This document shows positions 10,119-52,565 of a stretch of DNA of 64,000 nucleotides, one piece after another. Each line of letters begins with the position of its first letter. The stretch's first letter is position 1. A model generated the notes under the pieces. The model was not told the origin of the DNA. It searched no databases and saw only the letters and a program-made list of their open reading frames with translations. A program made the translations under genes and the position numbers. Location of the stretch: assembly GCA_963855995.1 (NCBI GenBank), contig OY979720.1:4962501-5026500 (forward strand), read 5' to 3'. Source of the DNA: Muricea muricata. Taxonomy: Eukaryota; Cnidaria; Anthozoa; Malacalcyonacea; Plexauridae.

Positions 10119-13100
10119 CTACTCCGTATCAGACCAATAATAGTCTGCGTCCTCACAATTCTCACTCTCGGAGTCTTGGAGACCGTAATTTGTGTTGCAG
10201 TTAAAATCACATGAGTTGCTCTGAAAAATTCGGCTGGGTTTCTTTGATAGCGGTGTGTTGGATTTCATCTGAAAAAGATCCATAAAATATCAACAAATCA
10301 TTTCTTTTCGTCAAGGAAAGAGTAATCATGAAAGACAAATTATTTCACACGGAAGAAAAAAGTAATTATGAAAAATGAATTATTTCACACGTTGTCGTGT
10401 GAAATTTGTAAGCTGAGACTTGAATCAGAAAGTTCGAGTTTTGCTCAAAAACTTTAAAAAACAAAAATACCTACCTTTTTATTGCAAACGAGATGGATTT
10501 TGCGTCTCTTTAACTTATTCACATAGCAATCAACGTGATTTCTACATGTGCATGAAATTGAAGTACGTTTTTGTACAGAATAAAAATTAGGGTCATGTGG
10601 CATTTCTAAGTTCTGCACGAGTTCTGGTACTGTATTTCGGGGGAAGACAGTACGTGAGGGGTGCCTCATTCCAATATTTAGCTTTACACGGGCCAAAACT
10701 TAAGGTTACTAATGAATGGTAGGTTCTACATACTGTAGTTTGGTTAATATTCGCACCTGTTAAAGCTGTTCAATAAACCTGGAGTCATGGTGTCGCTGTC
10801 TGATGTTGCAGATGGAAGCGGGCCAGCAGGCCGTAGACGGTTAACAGGAGTCTTAAAAATGTAAGGCGTTCTCAACTCTGTGTCTGTACTGATACTCTGT
10901 AAGCTCGTATCAAGAACCACTGGAGACAATTCACACTGAAATAAAGATATGAAGACGTCGAGAGATTTCGAAAAAGCTACGAGTGTCACTTTTGACAGAG
11001 GGTTTACCATGTCAGGCTTTGGAATTATAGTTACCACAAATTTCGTTGGAAACTTCCGTAGGTTGGTAAGTTGTAGTCACATTAGTCGTTTATTTACCGC
11101 ATAATAGTCATTCATTATTAGTCATTTATTTTACCTCATACTTCAACAGTGAAAGATCTACAAAAAGCTACTAGGAATATATATATATACCTTTAGTAAA
11201 GATTTTCTGTTTCTAAATGGCGTTCCCTCGAAAGCATCATCTTCATAGCCTTCATCTTGTTTTTCCAACATGGCCCGTAGTTCCCGCTTCCGAGCCATTG
11301 GTCCTGTTTTCCTCACTAAAGTAAGAATATTTGATTAGTAATTACATCGTTCACTTCTTATTCGCCATTTCTGGCAGGTACATTTACGGGGAGCTGGTTC
11401 CTACCTTTTCCCCGATGCATTCCGCACATCTCCCGTGTATCCTTTGTCATGCAAGTGGAGCTGAGTGTATGAATTTAAGTTCCCTCAAAATTGAAGCATA
11501 AATAATAATGAGTAAGTATATCAAAGCATGAGCACTTCACCTTTGGGCTCCTTAACGTCTTCTTCCTTATTACTGTTTGAGAAGGAAAGCGTGTATGTCC
11601 TAGGTTCTTTGAATTGCACATCGGAACCCGATGGCTTTCGGACGTTTTCATTTTTCCTTGCTTTGGCTTTTGTTTTCTGCGCTTTCTTCTTCGTAATCTT
11701 CTCAACGCCAGCGTTCAAAATTTCGCCACTTTTCTCCGCAAATCGAGGACTCCTTAAACTGTACCTTCTTTTCTTCGTTACACTTCTCATAACAACATTC
11801 TTCGCTGTTGTATTGTTGCTCTCTTCAGATCGAGGACTTCTTGTATCATGGAAACTTTCTTTCTTTGTTGCGCTACTTAAGACAGCTTTGGTCGATGTTT
11901 CGCTGTCGCTTACTTCAAATCGAGGATTTCGTGACTTGCAACTTCCTTTACTGGTTGCACCGCTCAAACAATCGTTGTTCAGAGTTTTATCCTCACTCTC
12001 CTCAAATCGGGGACTTCTTCTTGGAATGTAGCTTTCTTTGTTTGTTGCGCTGCACAAGACAGCATTATTCGAGGTTTCGCTGCCGTTCTCTTGAAGTTGA
12101 GGACTTCTTGATTTGTAACTTCTTTTGTTTGTTTCACCGCCCAGAGCAGCGTTGCTCAGTGTTTTACTCTCACTCTCCGCAAATCGGGGACTTCTTCTTG
12201 GAATGTAGCTAGTTCTTTTGTTTGTTACGCTACACAAGACAGCGTTATTCGACGTTTCACTGCCAACCTCTTGAAGTTGAGGACTTCTTGACTTGTAACT
12301 TCTTTTATTCGTTACACCGCCCACAGTAGCGTTGCTCAGTGTTTTACTCTCACTCTCCGCAAATCGTGGACTTCTTCTTAAACTATAACTGTTTTTACTT
12401 GTTACACTACTCAAGGCAACATTGTTCGGTGTTTTATACTTACTCTCCTCGAATTTTGGAGTGCTTCTTAAATTGTTACTTTGGTTATTTGCTGCACTGC
12501 TCAAGGCATTGTTTGGTGTTTTATCATGACTCTCTTCCAATTGAGAAGTTCTCCTTAAACTGGAACTTCTTTTGCCGCTCTTCAATGTCTCGCTATCGTT
12601 CTTGCTCATTAAAGGACTGGCTCTTCTCCGTAAATTGTAAACTTTCCATGATTCTGTTGGATGTGCTATCAAAATATGTATGACAAAAACAATACACCAA
12701 CAAAAGCAATAACAGGATAACAAATTGAACAACAAATAAATATTGTCTTTTTGGAATTCTTACAAATACCTTTTCTGTTACGTTGTCCCCCATTGATTTT
12801 TTTCTTATCAAGCATCTGGTTTTGATCAAAACTTTTACAACTTAATATCTCAAAAAGAAAAATATAACACATGTAGAGTCATGGGGGAAGGGCTTTTACT
12901 TAATATGAAATTAATAGTTAAAGTTTATAATAAAACAATTTTTTTATTCCCTATTTTGCTGCTTTTCATTTGCTTTCTTCTAACTTCATTGATATATTTA
13001 TATATTAGTTTGTTTGATTTTTTTGTATTTTAAACAATGTGACATCACAATGCATATTAATAAGCAATCGTTTAACCTATATAACTTTATTATACTGTAT

Positions 13101-22918: not shown

Positions 22919-24797
22919 CTGAAAAAAAAATTATATGCAATGGTTACTAGCAATGTTATAAATATTAATTATATATTAAGCTGTATTCTATTGAGCAAAA
23001 TATCAAAATGTTTTTGTCTAAGTAAACCAACCTTGAAAACACCAAAAGCACTCATAACTGTGCAATATCTGTCTTGCTATGAAAGTACATTTTTAAAACA
23101 CCCATACCGACCACCCAAAATGTTAATTTGACACTTTGTATGTGTGGCAATGTGAATAGTGTATAGCATGTCCACTGAAGCTTTCAAATCAAAAACATTT
23201 TGCTATTTTTTGTTCAGTGGATCTACAAATGGTTGTCCAGTGTTGAACTGTCTATGCATTTTGTGTAGTGATGTACTTGGCATGTAACAAAACCCGCAAC
23301 AACTGGAATGAAGCCACTACAACAAAACAACTTTAACTGCTAAAACACAGGAAAATGAGTGACATAAGCATGTCAGGAACATGTAATGCATGTGATAAAT
23401 TGTTTTTCTGTTTAGTTTTAGTACATGCTGATGTATTTGTGTCCTGGAGGCTGATGCCCCATACGGGTGAGTACAAACAGACATGAGAAAAGGGTCCTAC
23501 TAATTCATGCCTGTGACATGCCCAGGACCTTGAAATTGATAAATAAGGGAAAAAATACAACCAGTTTGTCAAAAACAGGTAGGATTTATATTAATTTTAT
23601 GACTATAATGCAACCAGGTTTGTATATATAATCCAACATATTAACTGCCACACTGGTCTTAGTTGACTGCAAATATGCAATCGCCAAACAATGAATGCAT
23701 TCAACACTCCGGTCTAATGCCGGTCTAGGGCACAAGAGTTTGCATTTATATGCAATCATCTATTTTGGTGTAACATATATTTTTCAGTAAAAGATGGAAC
23801 GCCCTATCTTTCATGTCATGAAAATATTCTTACCATTGCACGAATGAAAACATTCATTATTTGTACATTTGTAAACTGTAAACATCAATAATTTTAGCTA
23901 TCTTTCATAGATACGATTTTACAGGTTACATAATATAGGTAATATACCAAAAAAATAACAAACACCCTGTCAAAGATCGATGTTACAACACTTTTTAAAA
24001 TGCTACGTATCTATATATTCTGTGACTATTTATAATCAGCACTGAATCGAACAATCGAACTTCTTTATTCATACTTTTACACGAAAAATGTACTTCTAAA
24101 TCCTGCAACCTTACTTACCTTCGCGGCATTTAGTCCTTGTTCAGCTAGATATAAACTGTACATTATATCTTTTAAGTAATTGAGAAAGTATCAAGAATCA
24201 TATTTTTAACTTGAAAACCCATGCTACAAATGTAACATGACTGAAAACAAAGCTTTTACACGTCGGCGAAGGTTAATTGGGGATAACTGTTGTTACTGTT
24301 GTTAGTGTAGGTAATTGAGGGATTACTTAACTTACTGACGTCACCATAATGCCCAGACCACTGAGCTATACTATATATCTGGAGACTGCACTCCTTAATA
24401 TTTTTGGTCAAAAAAGTGTAATCGAAAACATGGCGGATTGTGACGTAAAACGCGTCACTGTTCCCTATTTTTTTCGGATGATCGCTGACCAATAGGGGCT
24501 CAATGGATAGTGGGCTCGATTTTCACCCCCCCTGATTTTGTGAAAAATAAATTGGGAAAAATAAAAAAATCAGATCCGATCAAGATCCGACAAGTGTTGT
24601 AAGTATTTTTTTAAATTTTATATTGAATTAAAGACTGTTTGAGTTTTAGTGTACTATATGTTTGGCATTAACTAGAGGTTTTGAAAAAAAGGAGCTTATT
24701 CATAACATTTTTTGCTTTGATTAAAACTGAGTTACGACCTTTTTTCATGCTGAAATAATAGTCTTTACCGACCCTCACTGATAGCTCAGCATCGTTT

Positions 24798-26183
24798 ATG
24801 GTTTATATTTTTTCTATTGCTCAAATAAAAAAAAATAACGGAAAATTGTGTGGTTTTTTAGTGACAGATAGCAAACGAGAGAAAAAAGGTGAGATTTTTT
24901 TTATTTTTTACATGTACGAAACCTTTACAAATGTGCTTACATACAAATACCTGTCAAATAAATTAAATGTCAATATATTATTACGATCTGTTATCCTTTA
25001 GCAAACAAACAGGACGAAATGAACGAAGGTATTTCATATACAGTATATTTCATCATCTGAGTTTTATAAAACAGTTATGTTATCTGTACTGACTATAGTC
25101 TGTTTATATTAATACTTGCATACATCTATCTTATTTTCCAAGTATTTTTTTGTAATTTGTAGATGAAGAAAAATATGAAGGAGGAAATGGTAAAAATTAT
25201 ACGCTAATTCTTTTCTATTGACTATTATTGTAATGCACATGTCAAATATTCTTGAATTTCTTGATTTTCTTATCTTTATATTATTATGGGTGGTTATTTA
25301 TTGAAAATTGATCTTTTGTTCACTTCATTGAAGTAGTTATTTGCAGTCTGTTTATTACTTGCATACATGTATCTTATTTCCAATTATTTTTTTGTAACTT
25401 GTAGATGAAGAAAACTATGAAGGAGGAAATGGTAAAAATTTCTTTTCTATTGACTATTATTGTGATGTACTTACCAAATGGTAATTAGGGTTAGGTCACC
25501 AACACATTCTTGAATTTCATGATTTGCTAATCTTTATATTATTGTATATTTTTTAAGTAAAAATGGATCTTTTTGTTCATTGCTTAGTTATCTGTTATTA
25601 TTTGTAGATGATGAAAACTATGGAGGAGGAAATGGTAAAAATTATGCACTTTCTTTTCTATTGGCTATTATTGTAATGCACATACCAAATGGTAATAAGG
25701 GTTAGGTTGCCAACACATTCTTGAATTTCCTGATTTGCTAATCTTTATATTATTGTAAATTTTTAATTAAAAATTGATCTTTTTATTTGTTTCCATACAA
25801 AAAGCTGACCAGCCATTTGGGAAGGTTAAAGGTATGGTAATATTAGGTTGAATTGAGTTACAGTGTATATTGGTATGAAATGTGCAAATACAATTAACAG
25901 CAATAAATAGATTGACTTCTTTTTTAATTAGGGTGTTGTTGGAAATGTGGCCTAAAAGACCACCAAATGAACAACTGCGAGTATGTACAAAAACAAAATA
26001 ATTTCTATATACTGTGCTATGTCTACTAAATCTTAAATTATGATTTACAGGAATGATATGCTGGCTCTGCTGAGAAAAGGGGCACGCAAGATTGGTATGC
26101 CTCTTGCCCAAAAGAAAAGGCGAACAGGGCGCAAAAAATCCAACATTTTTAATAATTGTACTAATATTACACTTAATAACTAA
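24798..26183 (+). CDS. Microexon gene: six 27-nt phase-1 coding units plus CCHC zinc knuckle
   Basis: Proposed exons: 24798-24888 (or only its last 27 nt, 24862-24888, which has its own acceptor TTTTTTAG), 25002-25028, 25163-25189, 25405-25431, 25608-25634, 25805-25831, 25932-25980, 26051-26183 (TAA). Each of the 27-nt units has AG before, GT after and phase 1 at both ends, so each inserts nine residues without shifting the frame. Units 3-5 encode near-identical acidic peptides (DEEKYEGGN, DEENYEGGN, DDENYGGGN). The 49-nt exon encodes the CCHC knuckle CWKCGLKDHQMNNC (C-x2-C-x4-H-x4-C). The last exon is basic (KKRRTGRKK). Read from the ATG at 24798 the product is 135 residues and the phases close exactly. 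AATAAA at 26270-26275. The 5' end is uncertain. No known family recognised; a nucleic-acid-binding accessory protein of the element is possible. Confidence 0.65.
25140..25790 (+). repeat. Tandem triplication of an intron-microexon-intron unit
   Basis: Three imperfect units (periods about 242 and 203 bp) each contain one 27-nt microexon. Flanking intron segments are also shared, e.g. TTCTTTTCTATTGACTATTA downstream, TCTTGAATTTC(T/A/C)TGATTT, and a TTTTTTTGTAAYTTGTAG acceptor. The microexon repeats therefore arose by duplicating genomic DNA including introns, not by in-exon slippage. Confidence 0.8.
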
Positions 26184-26320
26184 TTTTAAAAAATATTTTT
26201 AATGAGTGTATATACAACTTTAATAATAATTTAATGTTGAATATTGTAATGTATTTGTTTTAATTGTTTAATAAATAATAACATTTCTTTTAATGAATTA
26301 TTCTATAAACTAAAATGTAA

Positions 26321-26575
26321 GGGACTGGTCATAAAGTATGTGGGGGCTGTAGAAATTGAGGGGTGGGTCATGACTTTTTTAAGTTGCAAATAGAGGTGGG
26401 TCATGAAAATTTTAAGGATATACTGGGGGGGGGGGTGTCATTATAATTTCCAGTGCCAAATAGGGGATGGGTCATGTATATTTGTACAAAAATCACAGGT
26501 GGGGCACACAAACTTTAGCCTTTAAATAATTAAATTCTTATAGCCCACCCCCACCCATACTTTATGACCAGTTCC
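26321..26575. mobile_element. 255-bp MITE, PIF/Harbinger-like, nested in the 4.4-kb element
   Basis: Ends GGGACTGGTCATAAAGTATG and CATACTTTATGACCAGTTCC, flanked by TAA at 26318-26320 and 26576-26578, a TWA target duplication typical of PIF/Harbinger. The interior has G-rich GGGGTGGGTCATG-like motifs and a run of G. No ORF. Confidence 0.75.
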
Positions 26576-27775
26576 TAATCAGTATATATTTTTTTCATTT
26601 TTGGCAACTTGTCTTACCTCAATTTTATGGGTGAACTTAGCCTATCTATGCACTAGATATAGCATAAACATCAAATTGACCATAATAAAAAAGATGGCAG
26701 TTACACATTTTACCAGAATGCATAGCGGTTCAAAATCTTTTAAAAAGTAAATTAATGAAGAATGGACAGAATATAGTAGGTTATTTTCTTACTTATGCCA
26801 ACTGAAAATTTCTATCAATTAGCTTTGTGCAACTTGTCACCTTTTTTCAGCATTATTTATATTTGATACTCCTAATGCATTCTGGTAAAATATACATCCT
26901 CCACCCTTTTCATTATCATCAATTGTAATGAAATACCAGAGCTAATGTACTAGCGACAACTAGTAAACAGATTTATTGTACATATTAGGAAAATCTACTT
27001 GCTAACTTCCTTCATTTATCTGGCATAATTTTTCTATATTATGACAGTATTGGACACACAACCCCAAATTATTGAGACAATGTTGATACTATTAACTGCA
27101 TTAGATGCGTAATGCATATACAATAAGCAAAATATGTCTTAATTGTTCTGACAACTTTCCTTGATTCCGCTGTTCATTGCACACTATGTTTTAATTCATG
27201 ACCTAACCAGCGAGTTATCTCTGTAATCAGTAATATAATATATTGAGTAAAATAACCAGCATTTCCTGTGATTCCATTGATATAGTATAGTGCTTTAGAC
27301 TCACTATTCCAAATAATACAATAGCTCAATACTCTCTTGGTCTAGACATATATGCCAATGACATTCCAGTGGATCCAATTAAACCATCTGTGATATCTTC
27401 CTGGAATTAGAAAACGTCAATAAATTTACCATTTTAATTCACTGTTATAAATATATATATATACATTTTGTTATATATAACACTGACTGGGTTAGTGTAA
27501 GGGAAAAAATAAATTATATAAAGAAACAAAAACCAGCACCCCAGATTTCTTAAACATGCATGGTTGCTGAAGTACTACCACTATGTGCATGCTGGTATGC
27601 TAGAAATCATACACTAACCATAACAAGTGATATGTTCTTCTCATTAAGAACATTATTGTATTTAACTCTATTATTTTTTGTATAAAAACAGTCATGTAAA
27701 AATGCAAAATAATGTAAAAAACTCCAAGCTAGCCTATGTTGGTATACGCATAGTTTTTGGGTGAAAAGTACTGAC

Positions 27776-28534
27776 CTGAGAATGCACTTCAAATATTGTT
27801 GGTGTCGCTTGCTCGCTATGAAGTTCAGGATTTTCAAATATTGTTGGCACAGCATGTGAAACATTTCAGCACTGAAATGCTCCGAACAAACTCGGCTGTC
27901 TTGCACAGGAACAATTTCTACTGGTGAACAGCTGTTTAATCCTTGAGTTGAACCCATTTCCCGAGCAGTTCTGGACTTTTTACTTTATCTGGAAAACTGT
28001 AATTAGATCAAAAAACAATTGTCTGTAAATTTTATAAAGCATGTCGACGTCGTGTGTATGAAATCGGCTTCCGGTTGAGAAGCACTGTAAATCATTAACT
28101 ATACTTCTTAGTGTAGGACTTAAACCATCACTGCTTAAACCACAGTTAGCTATTAAACTTTCACGAAAACAGCTCAGCTTTTGAAAGTGTCAGCCAAAGC
28201 TGTAAGTTCTTTGCATTATAGAACTAAATTTCGCTTGCATTTGTCAGGCCTGTTCCTAATAATTTCAAACTTAAAAGCAAAAACAAGCTTGTATAGAATC
28301 ACGAAAAACAAACATCGCCTTACCACATATTCAGCTGAAAAAATACAGCAAAAGTTTTGATCTCGTCAAAACATGGCGAGATGCAAAACAACTGAGTGAC
28401 GAACATTTCGCGTATAAAAGAAATGCGTATAACTATAGCACAGGTTAAATATTGAGGAAAACTTACCGGTGAAAAGATATTCCTTTTCTCTTTCGAGAGT
28501 TCTTGCACCAAAAAAAGGAACAAGGACGAGGCAT
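27776..28534 (-). pseudogene. THAP-domain (P-element-like transposase) remnant
   Basis: Exon 1, 28467-28534: ATG then MPRPCSFFWCKNSRKRKG, giving the first zinc pair of a THAP domain (C-x4-C) and a strong GTAAGT donor. Exon 2, 27776-27996: starts FPDKVKSPELLGKWVQL with the conserved THAP tryptophan, and further on has the second zinc pair in SRVCSEHF (C-x2-H). These two parts of exon 2 are in different frames, so a frameshift lies at about 27925-27960 and the frame with the tryptophan hits TAA. No further transposase exons are recognised. THAP is a DNA-binding domain, and in P elements it recognises sequences near the element ends. The zinc-ligand pattern is clear; the transposase origin is inferred from position and TSD size. 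Confidence 0.7.
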
Positions 28535-28930
28535 GTTTTAAACAAAGTGAGTCGCAGTTTACAAAATTTCAATAGGGGAAAATTGCATTGAAAGTTTAGG
28601 CAATGATCCAGGGGGAACAGGGGGGGAGGAAAGCTTTGGACTGCTTTTCTGGTCAGCGATCATCCGAAAAAAATAGGGAAGAGTGACGCGTTTTACGTCA
28701 CAATCCGCCATGTTTTCGATTACACTTTTTGGACGGGAATGCGATCTCCAGATATATAGTATAGCTCAGTGGCCCAGACCCTAGTTGCATAACTGCATTA
28801 GATCAGTTTGAGCAGCAGTTTGCATCAATCACTATTCACTAATTACAATGATTACACTGCGCAATAATTCTGCAGTGCTGCAACTTGTTTTTGCAAACGT
28901 TTATTGTTATATGTAAACTACAATACATTA

Positions 28931-29368
28931 GGGCCATTTATACGGACCAAAATAAGCCGCGGCTTAAATAGGCCGCGGCTTAAATAAGTCGAGAACATCT
29001 GTATAAACGTACAATTTCTTTGCGACTAAAATAAGCCGCGGCTAATTTTAGCTCAGGGTTCGGGCCTCGTCTTAAATTGGCCGCGGCCAATTTTAGGCGG
29101 GAAAACCTCGTAAAAACGCTTCGTTCGCGACCAAGGCAAGTCTATTTATACGATGTTTATTAATATTATTTATTATTAGTTTAGTTTATTAATAAGATGT
29201 TCGCGGCCAAGGCAAGTCTGTTTATATGATGTGTTGTCTTATTTATACGAGTGTTTTGGGCTATTTTAATAAATTTAGTAAAACTGGCGTATAAAAGGCT
29301 GTGTTCTCGACTTATTTAAGCCGCGGCCTATTTAAGCCGCGGCTTATTTTCGCTCGTATAAATGGCCC
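28931..29368. mobile_element. 438-bp MITE with CCGCGG-rich long inverted repeats, TA target site
   Basis: The left end GGGCCATTTATACGGACC and the right end CGCTCGTATAAATGGCCC are inverted. About 70 bp of each end pairs, including repeated AAGCCGCGGCTTA and AAGTCGAGAACA motifs. TA lies at 28929-28930 and 29369-29370. The short palindromes within the TIR are themselves self-complementary. It is non-coding. Confidence 0.75.
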
Positions 29369-29639
29369 TATTGTTACCTTATTAAAGCAAACAATTTATA
29401 AATATCAATCAATTCTAAACTATTAAAAATGTTTGTATATATAGTTTCTACACTAAAATAGTTATTCTGTAGTTAACCTGACAAAGTCAGGCCCTTTCCT
29501 TCGTTCGCTAGGATTTGACTGGTAGTGGGCGCGAATTTATTTTTCTCGTTTTCTCGCCCGCCGCCTCCGCCCGCAACTTGCTAAGTGTAGCGAAAGACGA
29601 GGAAAATAAAGACTGACACTCTGTAGTATATTGTAACTA

Positions 29640-31582: not shown

Positions 31583-32639
31583 TGCCTGTGATAAAGCTGA
31601 ACGAAATATAGTATTTATGAATTATTAAATTGCCGTTTACAACGCTAAATACATGAAAATCCTTATAGGAAAAGCACTGGAAAAGGTATGTCATATAATA
31701 AAAATTCCATTGAGTGGTTTCACATATAATCTGGCCGAGTATAACTTATGTATAATACGAGACAAATATTTCGTAGAATCACACATATAATTATCGTCCA
31801 TTCGTCCTACATATTTTAATTTGGAATTTCATACCGTATATCTCTGGTGATATCCTACGATAGTTGCTTTATATTCTTAATATAACTTGTTTTAATCGGG
31901 ACAAAGTACAGTAATTTCGTCGTTCAATATCCCTGTACTTTCGTTAGGAAGACTTAAAATGTCGACTGGCTATACGACCTAGAAGGCATTTAAGTCGACA
32001 AAAGTCATCTTGATAAATATAAATAGTAAAGATTAGGAACCAACAACATTGTAAAAATGTAATTCGTGATATTGGCAGATAGCATGGGACAACAAGTAGT
32101 CGGTGAAAGTCGGTGAGCATAGCGGGAGAGAACAGTATAAATGTAACAAGACGCCTGCTAAGGCGTTCACTCCGCCTGCCAAACGAAAATGGGCACAAGG
32201 CCAGGCAGGGCTGTAACTAGAGAGTTCATTGGGGGTGGGGTACATTCACTTATTTCTATTCTGCCCAACTAATTCCTTTTTAAATCAATTATTATTAGGG
32301 TACCTTCCAAGGCATTTTAAGACATTGCTAGCACATCTTATGTAATCACTAAGATAACCAAAAATCAATGTCTGAGTGACCTGCCAGGCACTCTGTCCAG
32401 AGTCCTAGTAGGATTGTATTTTTTAGAATTTAATTTAGATTAAAGACTTTCATAGTACATATGTTAAACAAGATTCTTTTACCACCAACATATAGCTGTT
32501 TTATTTTGCAAGTAAAGAAAATTTTACTAAAAGTGTATACAATACATCAATCTATTAAATCCATCAATTTATTAAATCTATTCTGTAGCACACTGCCTGA
32601 AGTCTCCACGATATAATTTGTTGGGAAAATGTTGGCTAG

Positions 32640-33240
32640 CCTTTTGATATATTGACAAGCTTTGAATTAGATATTTGATGTGTTGATAAGGTGTCAGGTA
32701 AATATTTGGCATGTTTATAAAATGTTGGTAAGGATTTTGACTAGTTGACAAGTTTTCGAGCAGACTTTTGACATGTTGATAAGATCTGAGTTAGTCTTTT
32801 GATATGTGGACAAGCTTTGAAATGGACTTTTGACATGTTGATATGCTCTTAGTTAGACTTTTGGCATGTTGACAAGACGTCGGTTAGGTTTTTGGCTTGT
32901 TGACAAGATGTCAGTTAGGCTTTTGGCTTGTTGACAAGATGTTGGTTAGGCTTTTGGCTTGTTGACAAGATGCCGGTAAGGCTTTTGGCTTGTTGACTAG
33001 ATGTCGGTAAGGCTTTTCGCTTGTTGACAAGATGTCGGTTAGGCTTTTGGCTTGGTGACAAGATGTCGGTTAGGCTTTTGGCTTGGTGACAAGATGTCGG
33101 TTAGACTTTGACCTGTACATGCCCACAAGTTGTCAGTTAGACTTTCGACATGCTGAAAAAGTATTTACTTCCAGAAAGCTTCAGGTGTCAGTTAAAACAT
33201 TGGTATATAGGCAGGGTGTCTGATAAAGGTTTGGCAAATT
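32640..33240. repeat. Minisatellite, ~31-bp unit, about 18-20 units
   Basis: The unit consensus combines GACAAGATGTCGGTTAGG and CTTTTGGCTTGTT. Units between 32860 and 33110 are nearly identical; those at both edges are increasingly divergent, the usual pattern of unequal exchange in the array centre. Absent from duplication copy 2. Confidence 0.85.
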
Positions 33241-34525: not shown

Positions 34526-37094
34526 ATATTCTGTCCACGGTAAGCCAGCGACTTTCAACGAACAAATTTAATTTTGAAGTTATAATCCAATTTTTGAACT
34601 TTGCTATTGATATAATATTTACTTAGCCTTAAAACCCCAAAGGTTACAGCAATGCATTGGTTGGGGGGGGGGCACATATTTTTTAAATTTGTTCCACAAT
34701 ATAGTGGTTAAATAGGTTTTTTGTGCTCTGCTTGCTGTTTGTGTGGTACTAGAAATTTGTAAGAATTTTTTGTCAATAAAACGTGTGTGGTCCAAGCACC
34801 GACAGTACAGTGCCTGGCTGGGTGAGATACTGAGGGTGGGTGAAATTTGATTAAAAATGCAATCGAAAATCCAAGACTTACCTGGGGGAGCATGCCTCCA
34901 GACCTCCCCCCCCCAGCCTCACTGATCCAGAATCGATCTACAGAGGAAATTTTTACCATCCAGAGAGGGAGGATCATCTAAAGAATGTGTTAAATATGCA
35001 TGGGATGTCTGGGAACGGGGGCATTGTTAATTTCCTTCTTCGGGGTGGACTTTTCTAGAACAACCAATTGAGCCATAGCTATGCCACTGTGCATGCAGAG
35101 TAAAAATCTGTTAAAAATATCCTGCCCCCAACAAAAAGTTTCACCCCTGCTAGTAGCTATCTTTTTTATATATTGTAAAATTCATGAATAATCAATTTGG
35201 TCATAATGATGCAATATTTAGGTCACACTTGTATACCACATTAAAGATCAGAAAAAGAGATGTTTTTGAAAGTTAACAAATGCTAATTGACAAGCAAGGA
35301 CATTTATCAAAGTTAACAATACTAATGATGTGCTGCAAGCTTGCTATTGTAAATCCTTATAAAGACTAGCTGCTCATATTTTAACTAGTACTTAAATAGC
35401 TCATTAATTAATAATTCATGTACAAAACGCAAAGGAAATCATAGCCGTGAGTCTTTATGTGTGATAAAACACACTTCAATTTTTCCAAAACTTTTGCCTC
35501 AAATTTCTCACCTATACAACATGTACATAAGTAAGTTGAAAATTCTTTCGCAAACAAACTGACAAGATGGGTGTAAAATGGATCTTTTTTTAAGCCATTT
35601 AAAACATTTGTGGTTCATGTTTAATGCACTCCTACTCATGTTTTAACTAGTACTTAGAAAAGATAATTAGAAAATCAAACAAATGAATGTTTTATGTGTA
35701 TACCAGTGCCATAAGGCCAGCTTATAATTCAGGGCATGTAGTATTCATATATTTCTCTTCTGCATTCTTAATTTCTTTTCAAAATCTATGCACATAAATA
35801 TGGGTAATAATTCCGTGTTCTCTATAAATCTTAATCCAAGCTCTAACCCAAACCCTAATCCTAACCAGCATTTTATTTGTTATGTTTTAACTTTGATGGA
35901 TTGAAGATTTGATTAGATTTAGAGCTTGGATTAAAATTTAATTTTGCATACTGAGAACACGAAATTATTACCCAAGTATATGAATATGCCCCCCCCCCTA
36001 ATTTTCGATGCAGGCTACACCACTCAGGTGTACGTTTATTTTTTGTGCTATGTGAAATTTATAATGCAAAGTGAGATTTGTATTGTTTGAATTTAAGCTG
36101 GCCCTGGCAGTTTCAAAAGAATACAATAATTGCTGGGCAGGCATTGCCCACAAAATTCTGAATAATTCACATATAGACATATATACTCCTTATTGCCTTT
36201 ATTGCAACAACAATGTGTAGATATAGTGGATATTTATGGATGCAAGTAATTTACTGTAACTTGAAAATAAATTTTTTTTTTGGGGGGGGGGTAAATGCAT
36301 GTCTTGTGTATTACATAAAAGTGGCAAAATGTATATGTTTATGTGGGTGTTTTTATATTTTATTAATTTTTTACGTCAATTATTGAGAGTTTTGTGTAAT
36401 GATTATCATTCATTGGGAGGGAGGGTATTTTTGTGACCCGTTATTTGCGTATCGTGATTCGTGATTTGCGAAAATACGGCAATTCCGTGAATCGTGATTA
36501 GTGAAAATTGAAAAAACTTCTTATTCGTGATTTTGAAAATTGAAAAAACCTTCGTGATTTCGTGACAAGAACCCCTCTTCATAAGATATCTCACAATATG
36601 CCAGGTTTAAAATGCTACAAATGCAGGAATACTTAAAACCTAACTGAATTTCATCGTTTTTGTGTTCCCAAATGGGATAGTTTGCCCCTCCTTAAATAGT
36701 CTATACTTGTATGACATATAGAAAACGATGTTCATTAAAAACGCCATAGAAGTGAAATATTTAATTAAGGAACTAACACTTTCAAGTTCAAATCCGAGAT
36801 GTTCCCGCTCAGTAGGCGTAGACCCGCAGTTTTCGCTCAAATTGCTATTTTATCTTTGCTTAGGGAAGCATCACATAACGATTTTGTCCACGAGAAACGT
36901 CATATGGACGTTTTTCTGCAGACCCCCCCCCCCCCCCACTACCCACAAAATTATATTTTGATATTTTGAAATTAAAGTTATTTTCAAAATGTTGTGACAC
37001 GCGGTGAAGCAATAATTCGCATCTGCTTATTGATATTTTCCTTTTGTTGTTTATAATTTATACTGATTGTTTCCAAGGATTTTGTCTCGTCAAA

Positions 37095-40000
37095 ATGAAT
37101 ACGTCCCCAGAACACAACAACTGGATTACAATCGGAGAAGTTATCAATTTAATTAAAAAGCCTGTCGCTTCGTACACCAGTCAAGTCGTGGGAAAATGGC
37201 ATGCCAAACTACTTGCCACATCATCGCCCAGAAAGTGCACGAATCCTGCAAATTGCAAAACGATAACTAAGGACCCTAAAAAGCTTTGCCTCAAGTGTAA
37301 AGGGTGGTACGATGAGCTTTGTAAATCGCATCAAAGTAAACCGCAAATGATCAACTGCGACCCATCAAGGTGGTCTTGTGATTCATGGGAGGTAGCCAAA
37401 TTCTTTATGCCTATCCTTGGGGATAACAAAGCAACTGTCAAAGACGCTGAATCAACCGATTTGGGATCCCTTTTGAACGTTCTAGAGAGGATGAAACGTT
37501 TGGTTTTCGCTCCAGACAGACGCGTAAATCTTAGTTACGTTAAAGATCTCCGTTCAAAAGTTAGAAACCGGTGGGCGCATGCAGCAAAGCAAGAATTTAC
37601 CCAGGCGGACCGTGATCAGGCATTTGATATTGCCATCGACTTTGTTGATGACCTCAATAAAGTTTATCCTTGTGCCCAAGTCGAAGAATGTTTTCAAAAT
37701 GTCCAGCTATTAAAAACTGAGGGACTAACCAACGTCGCAGAATCCGAGTTACGAGTTTTATTGAAATTATCTTCCGATGAGTTGCGTGCAGATATCCAAC
37801 AGATGAAAGAAGATATACAATGTTTAAAACGAGAGCAGAACTCCGATCGACACGCAATCGAGGAAAACGAGCGTAAGTTGAACGTTCTGGAAGACCTTGT
37901 TAAGAAATTGCGTCAGCAAAATAATTACATACCAAAAAGCTGCATACCCGACAAACCAGGAAAATTTGTTGGACGCGGCGAACAAGTAGAGCGGATTATA
38001 TCCTCCATCGTTAAAGACAAGTCTGGAATTGTCTCAATTATTGGGGGACCAGGGTTTGGAAAAAGCACTATTGCAGTCATAGTTTCCCATCGTTTAAAAG
38101 CTGAACATGACGTTGTCGTCATTTTCTCGTTGCTGTCCAATGCTTCAACTGTAGAAGAAGTTATTTTGCAACTCTGTCATGATTTTGGCATCGATCCTGG
38201 AAAAGATCCTGAATCATCATTGATGATGCGGGTAAAAAGGATTGAGAATAGAGTCCTCCTTGTCATGGATAACATTGAGCAACTGCTTAAGGATGGAGTA
38301 AAAACTCGGTTCGTTGAATTGATAGCAACGCTCCGCAAAAATTCAGACCAAAAACTGCAGCTTCTAACGACGACAAGAATCCAATTATCAAATAGTCACC
38401 AAACAATCGAGAAAATACGAGAGTTAGATGAAGAATTTGGTGTTAAACTATTAAAAACATATTGCAACGAAGACTGCGACAAAAAGGTAACAGACAGAGT
38501 AACAGGGCAGCTGTCTACTTTGGCAAAACTATGTGGCTACGTTCCTCTCGCCTTATGTCTCACAGGATCTCAAATACCAGATCTTGATGATCTTGACGAA
38601 ATGATCGAGTGGTTGAGAAATGCACCTATGGAAGCTTTGGAAAGCCCTGACGACTCCGACCAGTCTGTACGAAAGGCGATAGAATTCTCTTTTAAAATGT
38701 TGGATGATGAAGATAAGCAAGCGTTGGTTCGGCTTTCAGTTTTTGCTGGAAATTTCGAAAAAAAGTCCGCTCAGGAAGTTATTGAGAGAAAAAAGATGCT
38801 AACTCAACGTTTTTTAAAAAAGCTCGAAGCTCGTAGTCTAATACAGAGTAGCGTTGACAAGCGCTTCGTAATTCACCCGCTTATTCGGCGGTTTCTGGCG
38901 GATCATGACCAGTTCCAAGATGCAAAGCATAAAGCACAAAAATTTATGGTAAAGTATTTTCTGGAGGTGTGCCATTCGTTGACGATGGAATCGTATTCCA
39001 AAGATAAATTTACCCATGCCAGAAAATCTCTAAAGGATGACGTCCACAATGTCGGTGAAACTTTGAAAATGTGCAGTCATGATCAAACAACCGAGCGTAA
39101 TCCAATTATCGTTGACACTCTGGCAGGTAGTGATATTTACAGTTCTTCGTCCCGTTTCTTCTACAACTTTTGTTGGGATCTTCTTCCACAAAAGGTTTTA
39201 AGAGATTTTCATGAGACTTGTGCGACACTTGCTGAAAGTCGAAATGATGTGGGTATTGAGATCACATTCCAGTGTCTTGCAGCGGATCAAGAGGGGCGTG
39301 AATGTGGTTGGAAATCTACTCCTGAATTTATCAACAGAATGAAGAATATCAAGAAAGCGTTTGATGAAAATAAATTGGTGCTGAAAGACGACAGGACGTT
39401 ATTTCTCTATTGTTACTATTTTTGTGCCCGAAATTATAAAGCAGAAAACACGCAAAATTCTGACCTTCCAGAAAGTGATCTTCCAGAAGAATGCTTTGTC
39501 CCTTCGCCTGAAAGCAAAGAACGAAGTAACATCGAGAAAGTTGATGGCGATATATTGATTAGTATCGAGCGTGGAAATTTGTACAAGAATTATGCAAATA
39601 AAATATTCAAGAAAGATAAGAAAATTTACGAGCAATACATGGAACAGGCAGAAGAGTTTTACGACAAAGCTTTGAAATCAGCCAATGAGTTGTTGGGTGA
39701 CCACGAATCGACTTGTATTTGTCAAAAATTGTTGGGGGATTTATATCTTAATTGGCGGAAGAACGAAAAAGCACTGCACTTTTATTCAAAAGCCATAGAG
39801 CTACGCGAAAAGTTACAGCTGAATTCCAATGAACCGTTCGTCTTCTTGCTTAAGAACTGTGGATCTTGTCTTTTTTATCTTCGGCGCGACGAGGAATCAG
39901 AGGAAAAGTTACAAGAAGCTCGCAAGATAGCTGACCTTCTCGCTGACAAGAAAACGGCAGAACATTGTAGAGCAAAGGTGTATTGTGTGTTGGCAAGAAA

Positions 40001-40160
40001 TTACAGTAGCTGGAAACCTGATTGCCAAGAAGCCGCAAAATACGCCAAAGTGGCAATGGAGATGCGTGATTTCCTGAAAGAAGGGGAAATCGAATGTTTG
40101 GAAGACATCATTATAAGAGCTCAAGAAAACATGGCACGACAGGACGCACTACATCCTTAA
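37095..40160 (+). CDS. Intronless HEPN-NB-ARC-TPR STAND receptor (NLR-like), intact copy
   Basis: 1,021 codons without interruption. The first ATG in frame is at 37095, just after an AG (37077) with a pyrimidine tract that probably ends a 5'UTR intron. Residues ~5-190: DZIP3-like HEPN region with the RNase-type motif RNRWAH at 157-162 (R-x4-H), and a Cys cluster (C-x5-C-x10-C-x2-C-x7-C, residues ~48-76). Residues ~220-280: coiled coil. Then NB-ARC: P-loop GGPGFGKST at 317-325, Walker B LLVMDN at 388-393, TTTR at 425-428, GYVPLA at 481-486, winged-helix start LSVFAGNF, and IHPL at 593-596 in the place of the MHD motif. The C-terminal ~250 residues are TPR-like (LGDLYLNWRKNEKALHFYS near 880). 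STAND NTPases of this kind act as oligomerising sensors; HEPN suggests RNA cleavage as output. Ligand unknown. Confidence 0.88.
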   Translation: MNTSPEHNNWITIGEVINLIKKPVASYTSQVVGKWHAKLLATSSPRKCTNPANCKTITKDPKKLCLKCKGWYDELCKSHQSKPQMINCDPSRWSCDSWEVAKFFMPILGDNKATVKDAESTDLGSLLNVLERMKRLVFAPDRRVNLSYVKDLRSKVRNRWAHAAKQEFTQADRDQAFDIAIDFVDDLNKVYPCAQVEECFQNVQLLKTEGLTNVAESELRVLLKLSSDELRADIQQMKEDIQCLKREQNSDRHAIEENERKLNVLEDLVKKLRQQNNYIPKSCIPDKPGKFVGRGEQVERIISSIVKDKSGIVSIIGGPGFGKSTIAVIVSHRLKAEHDVVVIFSLLSNASTVEEVILQLCHDFGIDPGKDPESSLMMRVKRIENRVLLVMDNIEQLLKDGVKTRFVELIATLRKNSDQKLQLLTTTRIQLSNSHQTIEKIRELDEEFGVKLLKTYCNEDCDKKVTDRVTGQLSTLAKLCGYVPLALCLTGSQIPDLDDLDEMIEWLRNAPMEALESPDDSDQSVRKAIEFSFKMLDDEDKQALVRLSVFAGNFEKKSAQEVIERKKMLTQRFLKKLEARSLIQSSVDKRFVIHPLIRRFLADHDQFQDAKHKAQKFMVKYFLEVCHSLTMESYSKDKFTHARKSLKDDVHNVGETLKMCSHDQTTERNPIIVDTLAGSDIYSSSSRFFYNFCWDLLPQKVLRDFHETCATLAESRNDVGIEITFQCLAADQEGRECGWKSTPEFINRMKNIKKAFDENKLVLKDDRTLFLYCYYFCARNYKAENTQNSDLPESDLPEECFVPSPESKERSNIEKVDGDILISIERGNLYKNYANKIFKKDKKIYEQYMEQAEEFYDKALKSANELLGDHESTCICQKLLGDLYLNWRKNEKALHFYSKAIELREKLQLNSNEPFVFLLKNCGSCLFYLRRDEESEEKLQEARKIADLLADKKTAEHCRAKVYCVLARNYSSWKPDCQEAAKYAKVAMEMRDFLKEGEIECLEDIIIRAQENMARQDALHP

Positions 40161-40206
40161 CATCCAACGTTCTTCTACTTGACTATTTGCATTCAGATAT
40201 GATGCG

Positions 40207-40401
40207 TTGATGCGTGAGAGAGCAATGGAACGTATGCGCGAGAGAATGAGACAACGCGAGTTGGAACGTGAACGCGAACGTGAGAGAAAAGAGCTAGAAC
40301 GTTTGAGACTCACCGAAGGACGGCAGTTACGTGAAGGTCGCGAGCAGTTAGACCGTGTGCGATTGGAACGTAAGAGAATGAAAGACTGCGAAGTGTCCTA
40401 G
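40207..40401 (+). other. Arg/Glu-rich open stretch in the 3' flank of the receptor gene
   Basis: 63 codons from ATG 40210, almost entirely RERERER-type charged sequence. The paralogous stretch at 55660-55830 keeps the nucleotide similarity but is frameshifted and broken. It is probably low-complexity 3'UTR sequence, not a gene. Confidence 0.3.
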
Positions 40402-40563
40402 AGATTCGTACGTGAAAGAAAAATCTTCTACACGTGCTCCGGGATATTGGTCTACCACTGAAGGGGATTTTTCGTCTGGTTCCTTCTCTCCAACCGGTTT
40501 GGGTAGTTGCGGGTTTAGGTACATTATTGGATTTCTCAACGATATGTGAAGAACTACAATCAT

Positions 40564-40714
40564 TGGCGAAGCCGGCCCGACATTTGGTCATGCAAATGCA
40601 AATTTTTCCGTGTTTATGGACCGTATAAGGAATCAATTTCTAAAGAAATCAATAATGATTTAATGATTTAAATTTGCATAGCATGACCAAATTGTCGGGC
40701 TGGCTTCGCTACTG
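40564..40714. mobile_element. Foldback MITE shared by both duplication copies
   Basis: TGGCGAAGCCGGCCCGACAT pairs with GTCGGGCTGGCTTCGCTA, and GGTCATGC with GCATGACC. The same element is at 56041-56190 in copy 2, so it predates the duplication. Confidence 0.75.
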
Positions 40715-42070
40715 ATTAAAATGCAATATGATCTTTGGTGGGAAGGTGTGAAGGAACAGCGATTAATAGTAATAGTGGTTATAGGACAATAGTAGGATAT
40801 TATATGTAATTTTATAGATGAATATGTTAATTATAAAGCAAAAAAATCGAGCACAGAGGTTCTCAAAGTCAGTGAGAGATCGGACAAGTAAGAAAGATGT
40901 CCTTGAAGCGAGATATATAAACAGATATACAGAAACTTGGGACTTGGTATCGTCGCAAGAGACGACCCGATATTATACATAAAGACGTCAGAGTATTATT
41001 AAAACAAGTCTTAGAGCTTATTGTGGTGAGAAGTGATGGGCTTGAGATAAAGCTATGGTCGTTCACGACTGGTGTATTAGGTAACTTGCAGTGGGAACAC
41101 AACTGAAATCTCAAGGCTTGAGACGAACAAGTTGTTAAGTTTTTAGAAGTTACGTGAGGTATCCAGAGCTGGAGAGAGAAGACTCGGAAAACTCTGTTGA
41201 CTCGGGTTTGTTAGATTACTATAGGTATTTTTTTCTTTTGTAAATTATATGACAATTAATGCCATACATTGTTTTCACTGTCTCGGATATTTGGGGGACA
41301 GTAGCAGTAACACCCACGCTGATGAGTTAAATCGTCAGACTCGAAAATACAGAATTGAAACGGACTAATTAATATACATACTTTTTTGCACTTTTGGGGA
41401 TGAGTCTTCCCACTGCAAGAAGATTCTTTTTGTTCGCTTGCTTGATGTATTGCAGAGGCAGGGTGCTGAAAAAGTCTTCTTGAATTTTTAACAGATGACC
41501 TGGTTTTGCTGAAATACCTACTGTAATTTATTTATTACAGTATTAGGTATCTCTTGTCATTCCTGGTCAATCAAGGCGAAGACTAGAGACAGGTAGATAA
41601 GAAATACCGTAAAGTGTTCGTCATTGCGCGCATGTAGTAGTGCACCATTGTCGTCAATGCAGTCATGCAGTGAACTCCAAGTATAGTTCTCTGGTATAGT
41701 CGGGTTTAAATGTGCTGCCTACAGAGTTTCAACTTATTAATTATGCATGCCCCTTGCTTAGCCAGTGCGCTAAAAAGAGGCATTCTCCCTCTGAAAGTAC
41801 TCATCATGGCTATTAAAAATGGCCAGGGGGAGAAGGCCTGTCCTTGGGGCACTGCTAAGCTATTAGAAGCCGAAACTCTGTATGCTTTGTGGTACTGCAA
41901 CTTACAGCTAAATAGAGAAATGCACCCGAGCCAGACTCAACTGTGGAAGCCGTTCCAAGTGAAAACAATACGCCATCTAGACTTGAACAGGAGTTTTACG
42001 CTGTATTAAAAAATGGAGAAAACAAATAAATTACCTACAAGGTCAAATTATAAGTCAAAGAAACATAACT

Positions 42071-42745
42071 GTGTTAGAGAGAGAATCCCGTGTCCTACAG
42101 GAATGCATGAAAGAACTGGCATCAGTACAAGAGGTATTGGAAAACATTCAAAGTTCAACAGTGGAAAAAATGACTTTGTACGGAAAGTTCGAGATGAGTC
42201 GAGAAGCCAATCAAATTCTCCAACAAGTAGGACAAGCTGTCCGTGAGCTAAGAGGGAAAGAAGATGAAGACAGACAGTCTGTATGTTCTACACGAAGCCA
42301 TCGAAGTAGAAACTCGCATAAAACAAAAGGAAGCAAATCATCACATTCGTCCTCAGCCAGCACGAGCTCGTCTGCGCGGTTCAGAAGACTAAACTTAAAA
42401 GAAGAAATTGCTACCTTGTGGGTCAAGTTGAACTTGGCGGATGAAAGGGAACAATTAGATAAGGCAAACAGACTTGCACTTAGCGAAGTAGAGAGACGGA
42501 AATCAGAAATCGAAAGGGAACAGCAGCGACTAATGAAGGAAATCGAAGTCTCAAAGGAAAGGTTCAAACTTAGGGAGCAGCTAGCAGAGAAGGAGGCGAG
42601 AGTTGCGGCACGTGCACGATTCGAGAATGAAGGCATGTCAGTGATACTCGATGATGGAGATCAAAGCAATGCAACACGAGAACATATCGAAAGGTTTCTT
42701 CAGTCACAAGCAGAATTATCAGATCCCCCAACAAAAAAAAAATGA
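42071..42745 (+). pseudogene. Bel/Pao gag, N-terminal coiled-coil part
   Basis: 224 open codons without an ATG at the start (a GTG codon opens the frame), ended by TGA. Predicted long charged coiled coil with a Ser-rich linker (SHSSSASTSSSARF), as in many Bel/Pao gag N-termini. Continuity with the next ORF is lost by a stop and frame change. Confidence 0.6.
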
Positions 42746-42957
42746 CGAACACACCTCACAAGTCGTACGGAAAATTCCTGAAATCCATCAAAACCCCTCT
42801 ACTACCCAACCAATCTGCTTGGAACCCCAACTGTACCCATCTACGCCTGCCTATATCCCTAACACGCCCACCGTACCACACCTCGAAAATGTACCTTCTA
42901 CGAATATCAAAGATGGCCTACCCTGTATCCCAACCGGTACAGCAAACCCCGACTTAA

Positions 42958-44538
42958 GTGCAAATTCAGCTGTCGACAATTGCCAAGTTATTGGGAATCC
43001 AAGACCAGAATCGATTACCTTTACCGGAACCAGGAGTATTCAGTGGTGATCCTTTGAAATACACGATATGGGTAAAGGCGTTCGAGACCCTGATAGAGAG
43101 TAGAGCAATCAAGCCGAGAGAACGATTGCACTTTTTTGGGAAATACGTAAGTGGCGAAGCTAAGGAAGTGTTGAACGGCTTTATGCTCTTAGACGGTGAA
43201 GACGCGTACCAGAAGGCAAAGGAAATGCTGGCAAAACGATTTGGAGATCCGTTTACGATCGCGACGGCGTTTCGAAAGAAACTCGACGAATGGAAACAAA
43301 TCGTGCCGAACGATGCAATTGGCTTACGAAAATACGCAGATTTCCTCGTTCAGTGTGCAACAGCAATGAAGAAGGTTAGTGGCCTAAACGTCCTCAACGA
43401 CATACAAGAGAACCATAAAATGGTATCCAAACTTCCCAAATGGTTATCAACAAGATGGGCAAGAGTTGTGTACAAATCTAAGGAAGAGAAGAAAGGTTTT
43501 CCCGCCTTTTCGGAGTTCGTTGACTTCCTCGTGACCGAGTCAAACATTGCGTGCGATCCAGTTAATGTGAAATTTAACAGGAATAACGAAAAGAACAAAC
43601 GATCAAGGGACACCCGAAAACCAGATCCTCCTCATCCGAAATACATGTCCAGACCGTCACCCGGCGGCCTAAGAACCTTCGCGACAAAATCGGAAAACAA
43701 CAACCCCGAAAAACCTGCGACGAATTCCTGTCAATTGTGCAAGGCGAACCACCATCTAGATGCCTGCGAACGGTTTCGTGAAGTGGGTATCAAGGAAGGA
43801 AAGAAGTTCACACGAGACAAGCGACTTTGCTTTAGTTGCCTTGAGCAAGGTCACCTGTCGAAGCAATGCAAGAAACGAAGAAAATGCCACACCTGCGGAA
43901 AGCTACACCCTACCTCACTACATGGTGATCTTAAGGAGAACGCAAACGACGAAAATGCCAATAACCCATCTTGTGAAGAAACTGCTAATTCCACAACCGT
44001 CAACTGCACCAAGGCGTGCTTCATGAACGATGGAAGCCAAATGCGAACCAGCTCCATGATAGTCCCGGTCTGGGTATACCACAGCGATCCTGAAAACAAG
44101 AACCTTACCTACGCCCTGCTGGATGACCAGTCAGATACAACCTTCGTCACCCAGAAAACTTTAAATAGTCTTAACGTCAGCGGCCCAGAAACAACGTTAT
44201 CATTGTCAACTATGCACGCAGACAGACAAGCGATAGAAAGCACCAAAATCAAGGGACTTGTGGTTTGCGATTACAACTATAACGTGTCTATCCCTCTACA
44301 CGTGAGCTTTTCCTGTTCGGTCATACCAGCTAAAAGAACACAGATTCCATGTCCCGAAATGGTAACCCAATGGCCACATCTGACACCCATTGCGACGAGC
44401 CTGGCACCTTACCATCACGACATCGAGGTGGGACTTCTTATCTGTTCAAAAAGCTATTATGCCACGAGAGATCGTCGCAGGTCGAGACAACGAACCATAC
44501 GCGTAGAAAACAGAACTTGGTTGGGGCGTCATCGGTAA
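42958..44538 (+). pseudogene. Bel/Pao gag (DUF1759-like) with zinc knuckles and aspartic protease
   Basis: 526 open codons. First ~180 residues resemble the DUF1759 capsid-like region (PEPGVFSGDPLKY, RLHFFGKYVSGEA). Two zinc knuckles follow: CQLCKANHHLDAC and the canonical CFSCLEQGHLSKQC (C-x2-C-x4-H-x4-C). Then a DUF1758-type aspartic protease core with ALLDDQSDTTFV. The frame ends in a stop at 44536-44538, just before the reverse transcriptase part. Confidence 0.8.
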
Positions 44539-44559
44539 CGTCTCAAGGTTCAGACGAGA

Positions 44560-45320
44560 TATCGAGGAAAACGAACGGGAACCCGCACATGTTACACATC
44601 GAACAGTCACGCGCTGATGTGTTTGATTCGAATACGTGCTACTTCACCTTCAGGACAACTGCGAAGGAGCTGATAAACCCGGTCCAAGTGAGGCAAATGA
44701 TGGAATCGGACTTCTCGGAGAGAAAATCCGCCGAACAGCCAATGTCCCTCGACGACAAGAAGTTCATACAGAAAATGAAGCAAGGAATCCGTCAAGGAAA
44801 TGATGGTCACTACGAAATGCCCCTGCCGTTTCGTGACGAAGAACCGAGGATGTCCAACAACAGGTCTCTTGCGATGCATCGACTTGCAAAGCTTAAAACT
44901 CGGCTAGAAAATGACGAACAGTACCGCAATGACTACGTTGCCTTCATGAACGACCTAATGGAAAAGAAATACGCCGAGAGAGTCCCTGAACAACAACTTC
45001 CAACTAGCAACAGCAGAATTTGGTACATCCCACATCACAGAGTATATCATCCCAAAAAACCCACGAAGATGCGCGTAGTGTTTGACTGTAGTGCTCAGTA
45101 CAAAGGCGAGTCACTTAATAGTTATCTACTTCAAGGTCCCGACCTAACCAACCAACTCCTAGGGGTGCTTTGTAGGTTCAGGCAAAACCCCCTTGCCTTC
45201 ATGTGCGATGTGGAATCAATGTTCCACCAGTTTAAAGTGCTTACGGCTCATCGAGATTTCCTGAGATTTCTTTGGTGGGAGAACGGAGACACCACCAACC
45301 TCCGTCTGAATTTAGAATGA
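44560..45320 (+). pseudogene. Bel/Pao reverse transcriptase, N-terminal part
   Basis: Open frame with KMRVVFDCSAQYKGESLN (finger/palm start) and the first catalytic Asp in CDVESMFHQFKV. It stops at 45318-45320. The second catalytic box, DLYVDDGLI, is readable only after a frame change at about 45428-45454, so the enzyme is split. Confidence 0.8.
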
Positions 45321-45419
45321 CAGTACACCTTTTCGGCGCTGGTTCTTCTCCCGGGTGTGCGAACTACGGACTAAAGCAGATTGCGGACGACCACGAAGAA
45401 GAATTTGGTGCCGAGCTTC

Positions 45420-46155
45420 GTGAGGGACGACCTTTATGTCGATGACGGCTTAATTAAGGTCAGTCAATTCAGTTTCAGAGGCAGTTTCGCTGATTAAGGG
45501 AACCAAGGATATATGCGCACGAGGTAGATTACGACTACATAAGTTCGTATCGAATTCAAGAGAAGTGATGGAGAGTATTCCACCCAACGAAAGAGCCTCT
45601 GGAATAAAGAACCTAGATACGCGCAAGGACAATCTACCGGTAGAACGAGCCCCTGGCGTCGAATGGTGCGTAGAATCCGACACCTTCCAGCTTCGAGTCA
45701 TCCTACAGAACAAACCCCCCACCCGACGCGGAATTTTATCCATCGTTAGTTCCATATACGACCCAATAGGATTCGTAGCCCCTCTCCTTCTACGAGGAAA
45801 GCAAATCCTACAAGAATTATGCCGCGAAGGAGTAGATTGGGATGACCCAGTCCCTAACGAAGTGCGAACGCGTTGGGAGATGTAGCGTAGCGATCTTATC
45901 CTACTAAACGACTTCGGCGTCCAAAGATGCTTTCGACCCAACAACTTTGAAGTATTGAAATCGATCGAACTGCACCATTTCTTGGATGCCAGCACATCAG
46001 GGTATGGACAATGCTTGTATCTGCGACTTGTTAACGAAAGAGACGAAGTCCATTGCTCGTTCGTAATGGGAAAGGCTCGCGTTTCCCCACTGAAGAGTGT
46101 TACAATCCCACGCCTCGAATTAACGGCGGCACTAGTCTCGGTTAGAGTGAGTTAG
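45420..46155 (+). pseudogene. Bel/Pao RT thumb and RNase H remnants
   Basis: Fragments: YVDD box region (about 45434), then ILSIVSSIYDPIGFVAPL typical of Pao RT connection, then HHFLDASTSGYGQCLYLR, the RNase H-like start. In-frame stops at about 45883 and 46153 interrupt it. Confidence 0.7.
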
Positions 46156-46194
46156 AAAGGTGAGATCCCTTGCCACCCAAGCAACAGCTAACGA

Positions 46195-52420: not shown

Positions 52421-52565
52421 TTTTTTTATATTTTGAAATTAATTAAAGTTCTTTTCAAAGTGTTTTGACGCGCGGTGAAGCAATAATTCGCATCGGTTTA
52501 TTGATATTTTCCCATTATTGTTTATAATTTATGCTGATTTTTTTCAAGAATTTTGTCTCGTCGAA

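Follow-up and report, generated by a model that had tools for sequence, protein, structure and literature searches.

The locus between positions 24,798 and 26,183 of the 64,000-nt stretch of Muricea muricata DNA that we analysed (the window) raises the question of whether serial exons of one very short length can make up a gene carried by a DNA transposon. A preliminary description had proposed such a gene, composed of six 27-nt phase-1 segments, a 49-nt zinc-knuckle segment and a terminal segment. Judged from the letters of the window and from related database proteins, the best reading, to which we give modest confidence, is that a real split gene with serial 27-nt exons lies in a P-like, probably non-autonomous element. 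The existence of a split coding gene inside the element is moderately supported by its GC contrast, its codon use and its zinc-knuckle motif, and the positions of the features concerned are collected in Table 1.

The element (24359-28771) has perfect 27-nt inverted ends (24359-24385 and 28745-28771) and is flanked by a perfect 8-bp target-site duplication; a 6-bp duplication read by eye was dropped because ends placed at CACTG give the perfect 8-bp copies. These ends, the inner arm of the inverted repeat and the remnant of a THAP gene all agree with the earlier claim that the gene is carried by a DNA transposon. Since the 8-bp target duplication and the THAP domain point to the P-element superfamily, the assignment of 24359-28771 to the P-element-like DNA transposons is supported. 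As described in PMC7776569, the P-type elements of fly and zebrafish both have a THAP domain and an 8-bp target duplication, and the likeness to the Drosophila P and zebrafish THAP9 elements extends to their inverted terminal repeats and to defective, internally deleted copies (PMC7776569). In contrast to these elements, the inverted repeats are longer here, a second gene with a micro-exon-like layout faces the THAP gene, and no transposase region was recognised. A transposase of this superfamily would have a split RNase H domain and a GTP-binding insertion. The Pfam scan behind this negative took in one of the only two stop-to-stop ORFs of at least 120 aa within the element, the other being antisense to the exons; the element is probably non-autonomous. 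Scans of prokaryote genome contigs and of viral contigs returned no relatives (0 confirmed among 82 pattern-matching stretches in one prokaryote scan and 0 among 9 in one viral scan), and searching the window for Rfam families and tRNA genes gave no hits. Just right of the element, a 73-nt inverted repeat at 95% (28925-28997 and 29302-29374) could be a small inverted-repeat element in its own right.

Table 1. Window coordinates of the P-like element and of the candidate exons within it.
Feature	Positions	Strand	Basis or remarks
Whole element	24359..28771	.	4.4 kb; bounded by inverted repeats and an 8-bp duplication
Target-site duplication GCCCAGAC, left copy	24351..24358	.	
Target-site duplication GCCCAGAC, right copy	28772..28779	.	
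Left terminal inverted repeat	24359..24491	+	27-nt perfect end and 85-nt inner arm at 98%
Right terminal inverted repeat	28650..28771	-	Inverted-repeat comparison
Candidate upstream exon (tentative)	24565..24598	+	GTAAGT donor (24599); phase fits unit 1; no ATG
Unit 1, candidate 27-nt phase-1 exon	24862..24888	+	AG/GT, splice score, codon score; residues identical in P0001 and P0002
Unit 2, candidate 27-nt phase-1 exon	25002..25028	+	AG/GT, splice score, codon score
Unit 3, candidate 27-nt phase-1 exon, tandem duplicate	25163..25189	+	AG/GT, splice and codon scores
Unit 4, candidate 27-nt phase-1 exon, tandem duplicate	25405..25431	+	AG/GT, splice and codon scores
Unit 5, candidate 27-nt phase-1 exon, tandem duplicate	25608..25634	+	AG/GT, splice and codon scores
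Unit 6, candidate 27-nt phase-1 exon	25805..25831	+	AG/GT; poor acceptor (38th percentile); region kept in P0005
Candidate 49-nt zinc-knuckle exon, C-x2-C-x4-H-x4-C	25932..25980	+	Junction differs in P0006 and P0007
Candidate last exon, basic tail, stop TAA	26051..26183	+	Intact in P0003, frameshifted in P0004
THAP gene, exon 1	28467..28534	-	Inward from right end; donor GTAAGT; Pfam domain
THAP gene, exon 2	27859..27996	-	Broken: two stops and a frame change

The THAP gene at the right end and the plus-strand gene at the left end stand face-to-face, and the two THAP exons join in register across an intron. When the pieces were scanned jointly, with X at the breaks, they scored 40.4 bits against Pfam THAP (cut-off 23.9, E 5e-10); the longest single ORF in the region scored 14 bits alone. 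A short open stretch past an acceptor-like site (27406-27329, minus strand) may be the last exon of this gene.

For the plus-strand gene, all six 27-nt segments were found where first described, each with AG before, GT after and an open phase 1, and units 3-5 are indeed duplicates, being copies of one another together with parts of their flanking introns. The region holds two further AG-N27-GT segments, unnamed in that description, at 25075 (open in phase 1) and 25911 (open in phase 2). We also reproduced the frame in which the 49-nt knuckle segment and the terminal segment close the chain to 135 residues (91 + 5x27 + 49 + 133 = 408 nt), for which 24798-24888 must read as a single 91-nt piece. 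Since that piece is read without an intron, unit 1 is not a spliced micro-exon in this chain, and five units rather than six would be spliced. Thus the unit anatomy and the 135-residue chain were correctly observed, but unit 1 as a spliced micro-exon within that chain was not.

The proposed start at ATG 24798 did not hold. Codon use in the 21 codons of the lead-in that follows it (24798-24860) looks non-coding: the log-odds is -7.75, which ranks at the 6th percentile among 4169 non-coding open frames of equal length, whereas unit 1 alone scores +3.22. Nor is the ATG present in P0001 or P0002, both of the related copies that span its position. On these grounds we rejected the 135-residue model from ATG 24798 and also the inclusion of unit 1 in a 91-nt exon; the latter rejection is not certain, because a run of 28 residues from the lead-in through unit 1 matches P0001 at 25. 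Since the lead-in scores as non-coding and the ATG is lacking in both copies, unit 1 more probably forms a separate exon. The tentative exon at 24565-24598 has a codon log-odds of +2.2 over 11 codons, and its donor ranks at the 94th percentile among the GTs of the window. For the model with unit 1 as its own exon, no convincing codon was found for the presumed start site, the ATG candidates further upstream having weak donors. Of the original interpretation, the DNA transposon and, to a moderate degree, the split gene are supported; the start and the exact 135-residue chain are not.

The main rival to a real split gene, which we regard as a serious possibility of lesser likelihood, is a decayed gene in which the knuckle exon, the last exon and perhaps unit 1 are genuine remains of a transposon gene, and in which units 2-6, wholly or in part, are AG/GT pieces that lie by coincidence in an AT-rich intron with local tandem duplication. 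We counted chains of AG-N27-GT segments that stay open in phase 1 and lie 50 nt or more from one another, in 2000 dinucleotide shuffles and, as a real-sequence control, in 402 stretches of 1254 nt from the window, none overlapping the locus. Six such units were reached in 1 of the 2000 shuffles and in 2 of the 402 real stretches. Because units 3-5 duplicate a single sequence and should count once, the fairer measure is four independent units, and four were reached in 43 of 2000 shuffles and in 72 of 402 real stretches. With the locus included, four units occurred in 80 of 420 stretches and six in 3 of 420; when phase was free and units of 18-36 nt, taken in 3-nt increments, were allowed, six units occurred in 13 of 2000 shuffles and in 70 of 402 real stretches. 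Because so many equal-sized stretches of the window also reach four units, the bare AG-N27-GT pattern is weak evidence, and we rejected it as proof in itself on the shuffle and real-stretch counts. The commonness of the formal pattern is what a decayed gene with coincidental pieces would lead one to expect, whereas units 2, 3-5 and 6, being alike in length and phase, speak against it.

The case for real exons is carried by the composition and codon tests. The GC content is 39% in the exons versus 25% in the introns, with all eight exons at about 30% or more and all seven introns at 26% or less. When eight segments were placed at random, 5 of 20000 trials matched the exon GC; the corresponding counts were 386 of 20000 for six 27-nt segments and 85 of 20000 for four independent ones. 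Codon log-odds were trained on 3751 codons from the window's long ORFs, with 217 phase-1-open AG-N27-GT segments from non-coding parts as the null. Against this null, units 1-5 fell at the 97th-100th percentile and unit 6 at the 77th. In 20000 random draws, the summed log-odds of the four independent units was never matched. The codon signal was weaker, although not gone, under a best-phase null (n=316) and other training sets, where units 1-5 fell at the 80-99 percentile and unit 6 at 58-83. The GC contrast and the codon scores of units 1, 2 and 3-5 argue against the decay of the gene into partly coincidental pieces.

Other scores were less one-sided. In units 3-5, phase 0 scored slightly above phase 1, and the knuckle exon scored 3.35 in phase 2 versus 0.28 in phase 1. 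Compared with open non-coding frames of equal length, the knuckle exon fell at the 78th percentile and the last exon at the 63rd, so codon use says little for either. The predicted splice sites of the units appear fair, the unit 6 acceptor excepted: when scored with vertebrate weight matrices and ranked within the window, all unit donors stood at or above the 87th percentile and five of the six acceptors at or above the 89th, with unit 6 at the 38th. The poor acceptor of unit 6 and its ordinary codon score are consistent with a decayed gene.

Among units 3-5, summed over the three pairs, the exon has 6 mismatches in 81 sites and zero gaps, the downstream intron 44 mismatches in 349 sites with 96 gap columns, and the upstream flank 46 mismatches in 156 sites. 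We rejected the lower divergence of the units than of the intron as a sign of selection because the pairs are not independent and the upstream flank is only partly homologous, and the three-pair comparison gave no clear sign of purifying selection on these units. All three distinct substitutions among them change an amino acid, as would be expected more readily if the gene had decayed.

Relatives of the plus-strand gene region were found on at least seven other contigs. Three protein searches, which passed 2 of 8, 2 of 2 and all 3 of their candidates, respectively, yielded seven database proteins from other contigs (P0001 to P0007, with longest contigs of 47,522, 60,985, 564,741, 2,111,862, 9,000, 630,820 and 14,362 bases, respectively, and two contigs for P0006); these searches reach only relatives of similar length that have short exact words in common. 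As to a sequence relationship with the proteins of the schistosome micro-exon genes (MEGs), the first, a short-exact-word search, returned only P0001 and P0002 of its 8 candidates. Since the seven proteins are ORFs that run through exon and intron, they are DNA relatives viewed through an open-frame filter. They suggest a repeat family, and we infer that they lie in copies of the same element.

The copies differ in what they retain. P0001 and P0002 have unit 1 residues identical to those of the window and, like the window, read on into the intron at the donor. The last exon is open in P0003, with 5 of 41 residues changed, and frameshifted in P0004. The remaining three, P0005, P0006 and P0007, cross the knuckle exon on the opposite strand: in P0005, unit 6 and the knuckle exon are both retained along with the junction, its one two-residue insertion falling in an intron; in P0007 the knuckle exon is longer by five bases at its end; and in P0006 a GT is impossible at the position of the window's knuckle donor. 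Over every back-translation retaining ACTGC, the first GT follows TGC after 2 bases in P0005 and after 3, 7 or 11 in P0007, while in P0006 it follows after 7 or does not occur, and the window's knuckle junction cannot be shared by two of the three copies that show the knuckle donor (P0006 and P0007). In addition, the C-terminal halves of P0006 and P0007 have in common an unrelated stretch where the window has the part of the intron towards unit 6; the join lies near 25862, and the stretch is perhaps another inserted repeat.

P0003 aside, three of the four copies that show the knuckle junction or the last exon (P0004, P0006 and P0007) carry frame-breaking changes, and the THAP gene in the same copy as the units is broken; both observations favour a decayed gene. 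The preliminary description had looked to other copies for frame-breaking changes in the 27-nt units; those found affect the knuckle junction (P0006, P0007) and the last exon (P0004), but none was seen in the units that the copies display (unit 1 in P0001 and P0002, unit 6 in P0005). Units 2-5 are covered by none of the seven related proteins, and the unit-5 part of the third search's query had no visible match in its three hits. That the plus-strand gene is instead a captured host gene or exon array, a passenger fragment with no role in transposition, is improbable: no known transposon protein was similar by Pfam or by the protein database outside its own relatives, as such a capture would predict, but a host homologue was likewise not found in the Pfam and protein searches (the latter by short exact words and for similar length only), and relatives on so many other contigs are what a repeat family would give.

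Across all six frames, the window contains the spacing C-x2-C-x4-H-x4-C in only two places, the knuckle exon and a retroelement ORF at 43828. The retroviral nucleocapsid CCHC knuckle has the same spacing, and the best solved-structure match has an E of 0.011 over 18 residues. However, the knuckle scores 11.6 bits against Pfam zf-CCHC, far under the gathering cut-off of 20.8, and no other feature is shared with the nucleocapsid.

If the preferred reading of a real split gene is right, the P-like element would bear two inward-facing genes, the broken THAP gene at its right end and the small split gene at its left end. The middle of the latter would consist of serial 27-nt phase-1 exons, followed by the zinc-knuckle exon and a basic last exon, and the 27-nt exons would code for a linker that is charged, in part rich in glycine and probably disordered. 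Tandem duplication of one exon plus its flanking introns would have given rise to three of these exons, and would be tolerated because each unit is symmetric and the frame is kept. The putative product would be a short accessory protein that binds nucleic acids, with a linker that may differ in length according to the number of exons and to exon skipping. It is conceivable, though doubtful, that a P-like family uses serial symmetric 27-nt exons to build an accessory nucleic-acid-binding protein and that duplication of exons between copies and their skipping within a transcript grade its linkers in nine-residue steps, making it a mobile micro-exon gene. A ladder of isoforms is possible on paper, and its actual use is less likely than the 27-nt exons being real.

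The resemblance to schistosome MEGs that had been proposed is confined to exon layout. According to PMC8293314, most exons of MEGs are short (36 bp or less) and symmetric, and a transcript can do without them and still keep its frame; the DNA anatomy of the candidate exons fits such a layout. In contrast to MEG proteins, which carry signal peptides according to PMC8293314 and PMC10526429, the predicted chain looks charged, with a basic zinc-knuckle tail. MEG exon lengths are mixed, with 15 bp the commonest (PMC10526429), whereas all units here are 27 nt and the gene lies inside a transposon and would end in the zinc-knuckle/basic tail. Units 3-5, as tandem exon copies with flanking introns, are also like the tandem exon duplications of host genes; the latter, in the titles and abstract openings listed, are often spliced in a mutually exclusive manner, unlike the serial symmetric units of this transposon. 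No description of a transposon gene made of serial micro-exons was found in the titles and abstract openings among the literature matches listed. If the exons are used, micro-exon architecture would not be limited to host genes, a DNA transposon could carry and duplicate such genes, the P-like element would gain a second gene, and a mobile element would be a possible supply of ready-made symmetric exons for genomes.

Elsewhere in the window, a 412-aa ORF on the minus strand (11521-12759) contains tandem repeats with a period of 177-180 nt and had no Pfam match above the cut-off. A region at 36970-41932 is duplicated at 52441-57332, about 15.5 kb apart and at 90-97% among the repeat blocks listed (20 of 36 families), and contains an NB-ARC/DUF4559/TPR gene with a 1050-aa ORF at 37008-40160. 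Between the duplicate copies (42000-47800) lie retroelement-like ORFs with integrase domains below the Pfam cut-off. Finally, a minisatellite with a 31-nt period occupies 32610-33140, where 14 overlapping 128-nt copies lie in register.
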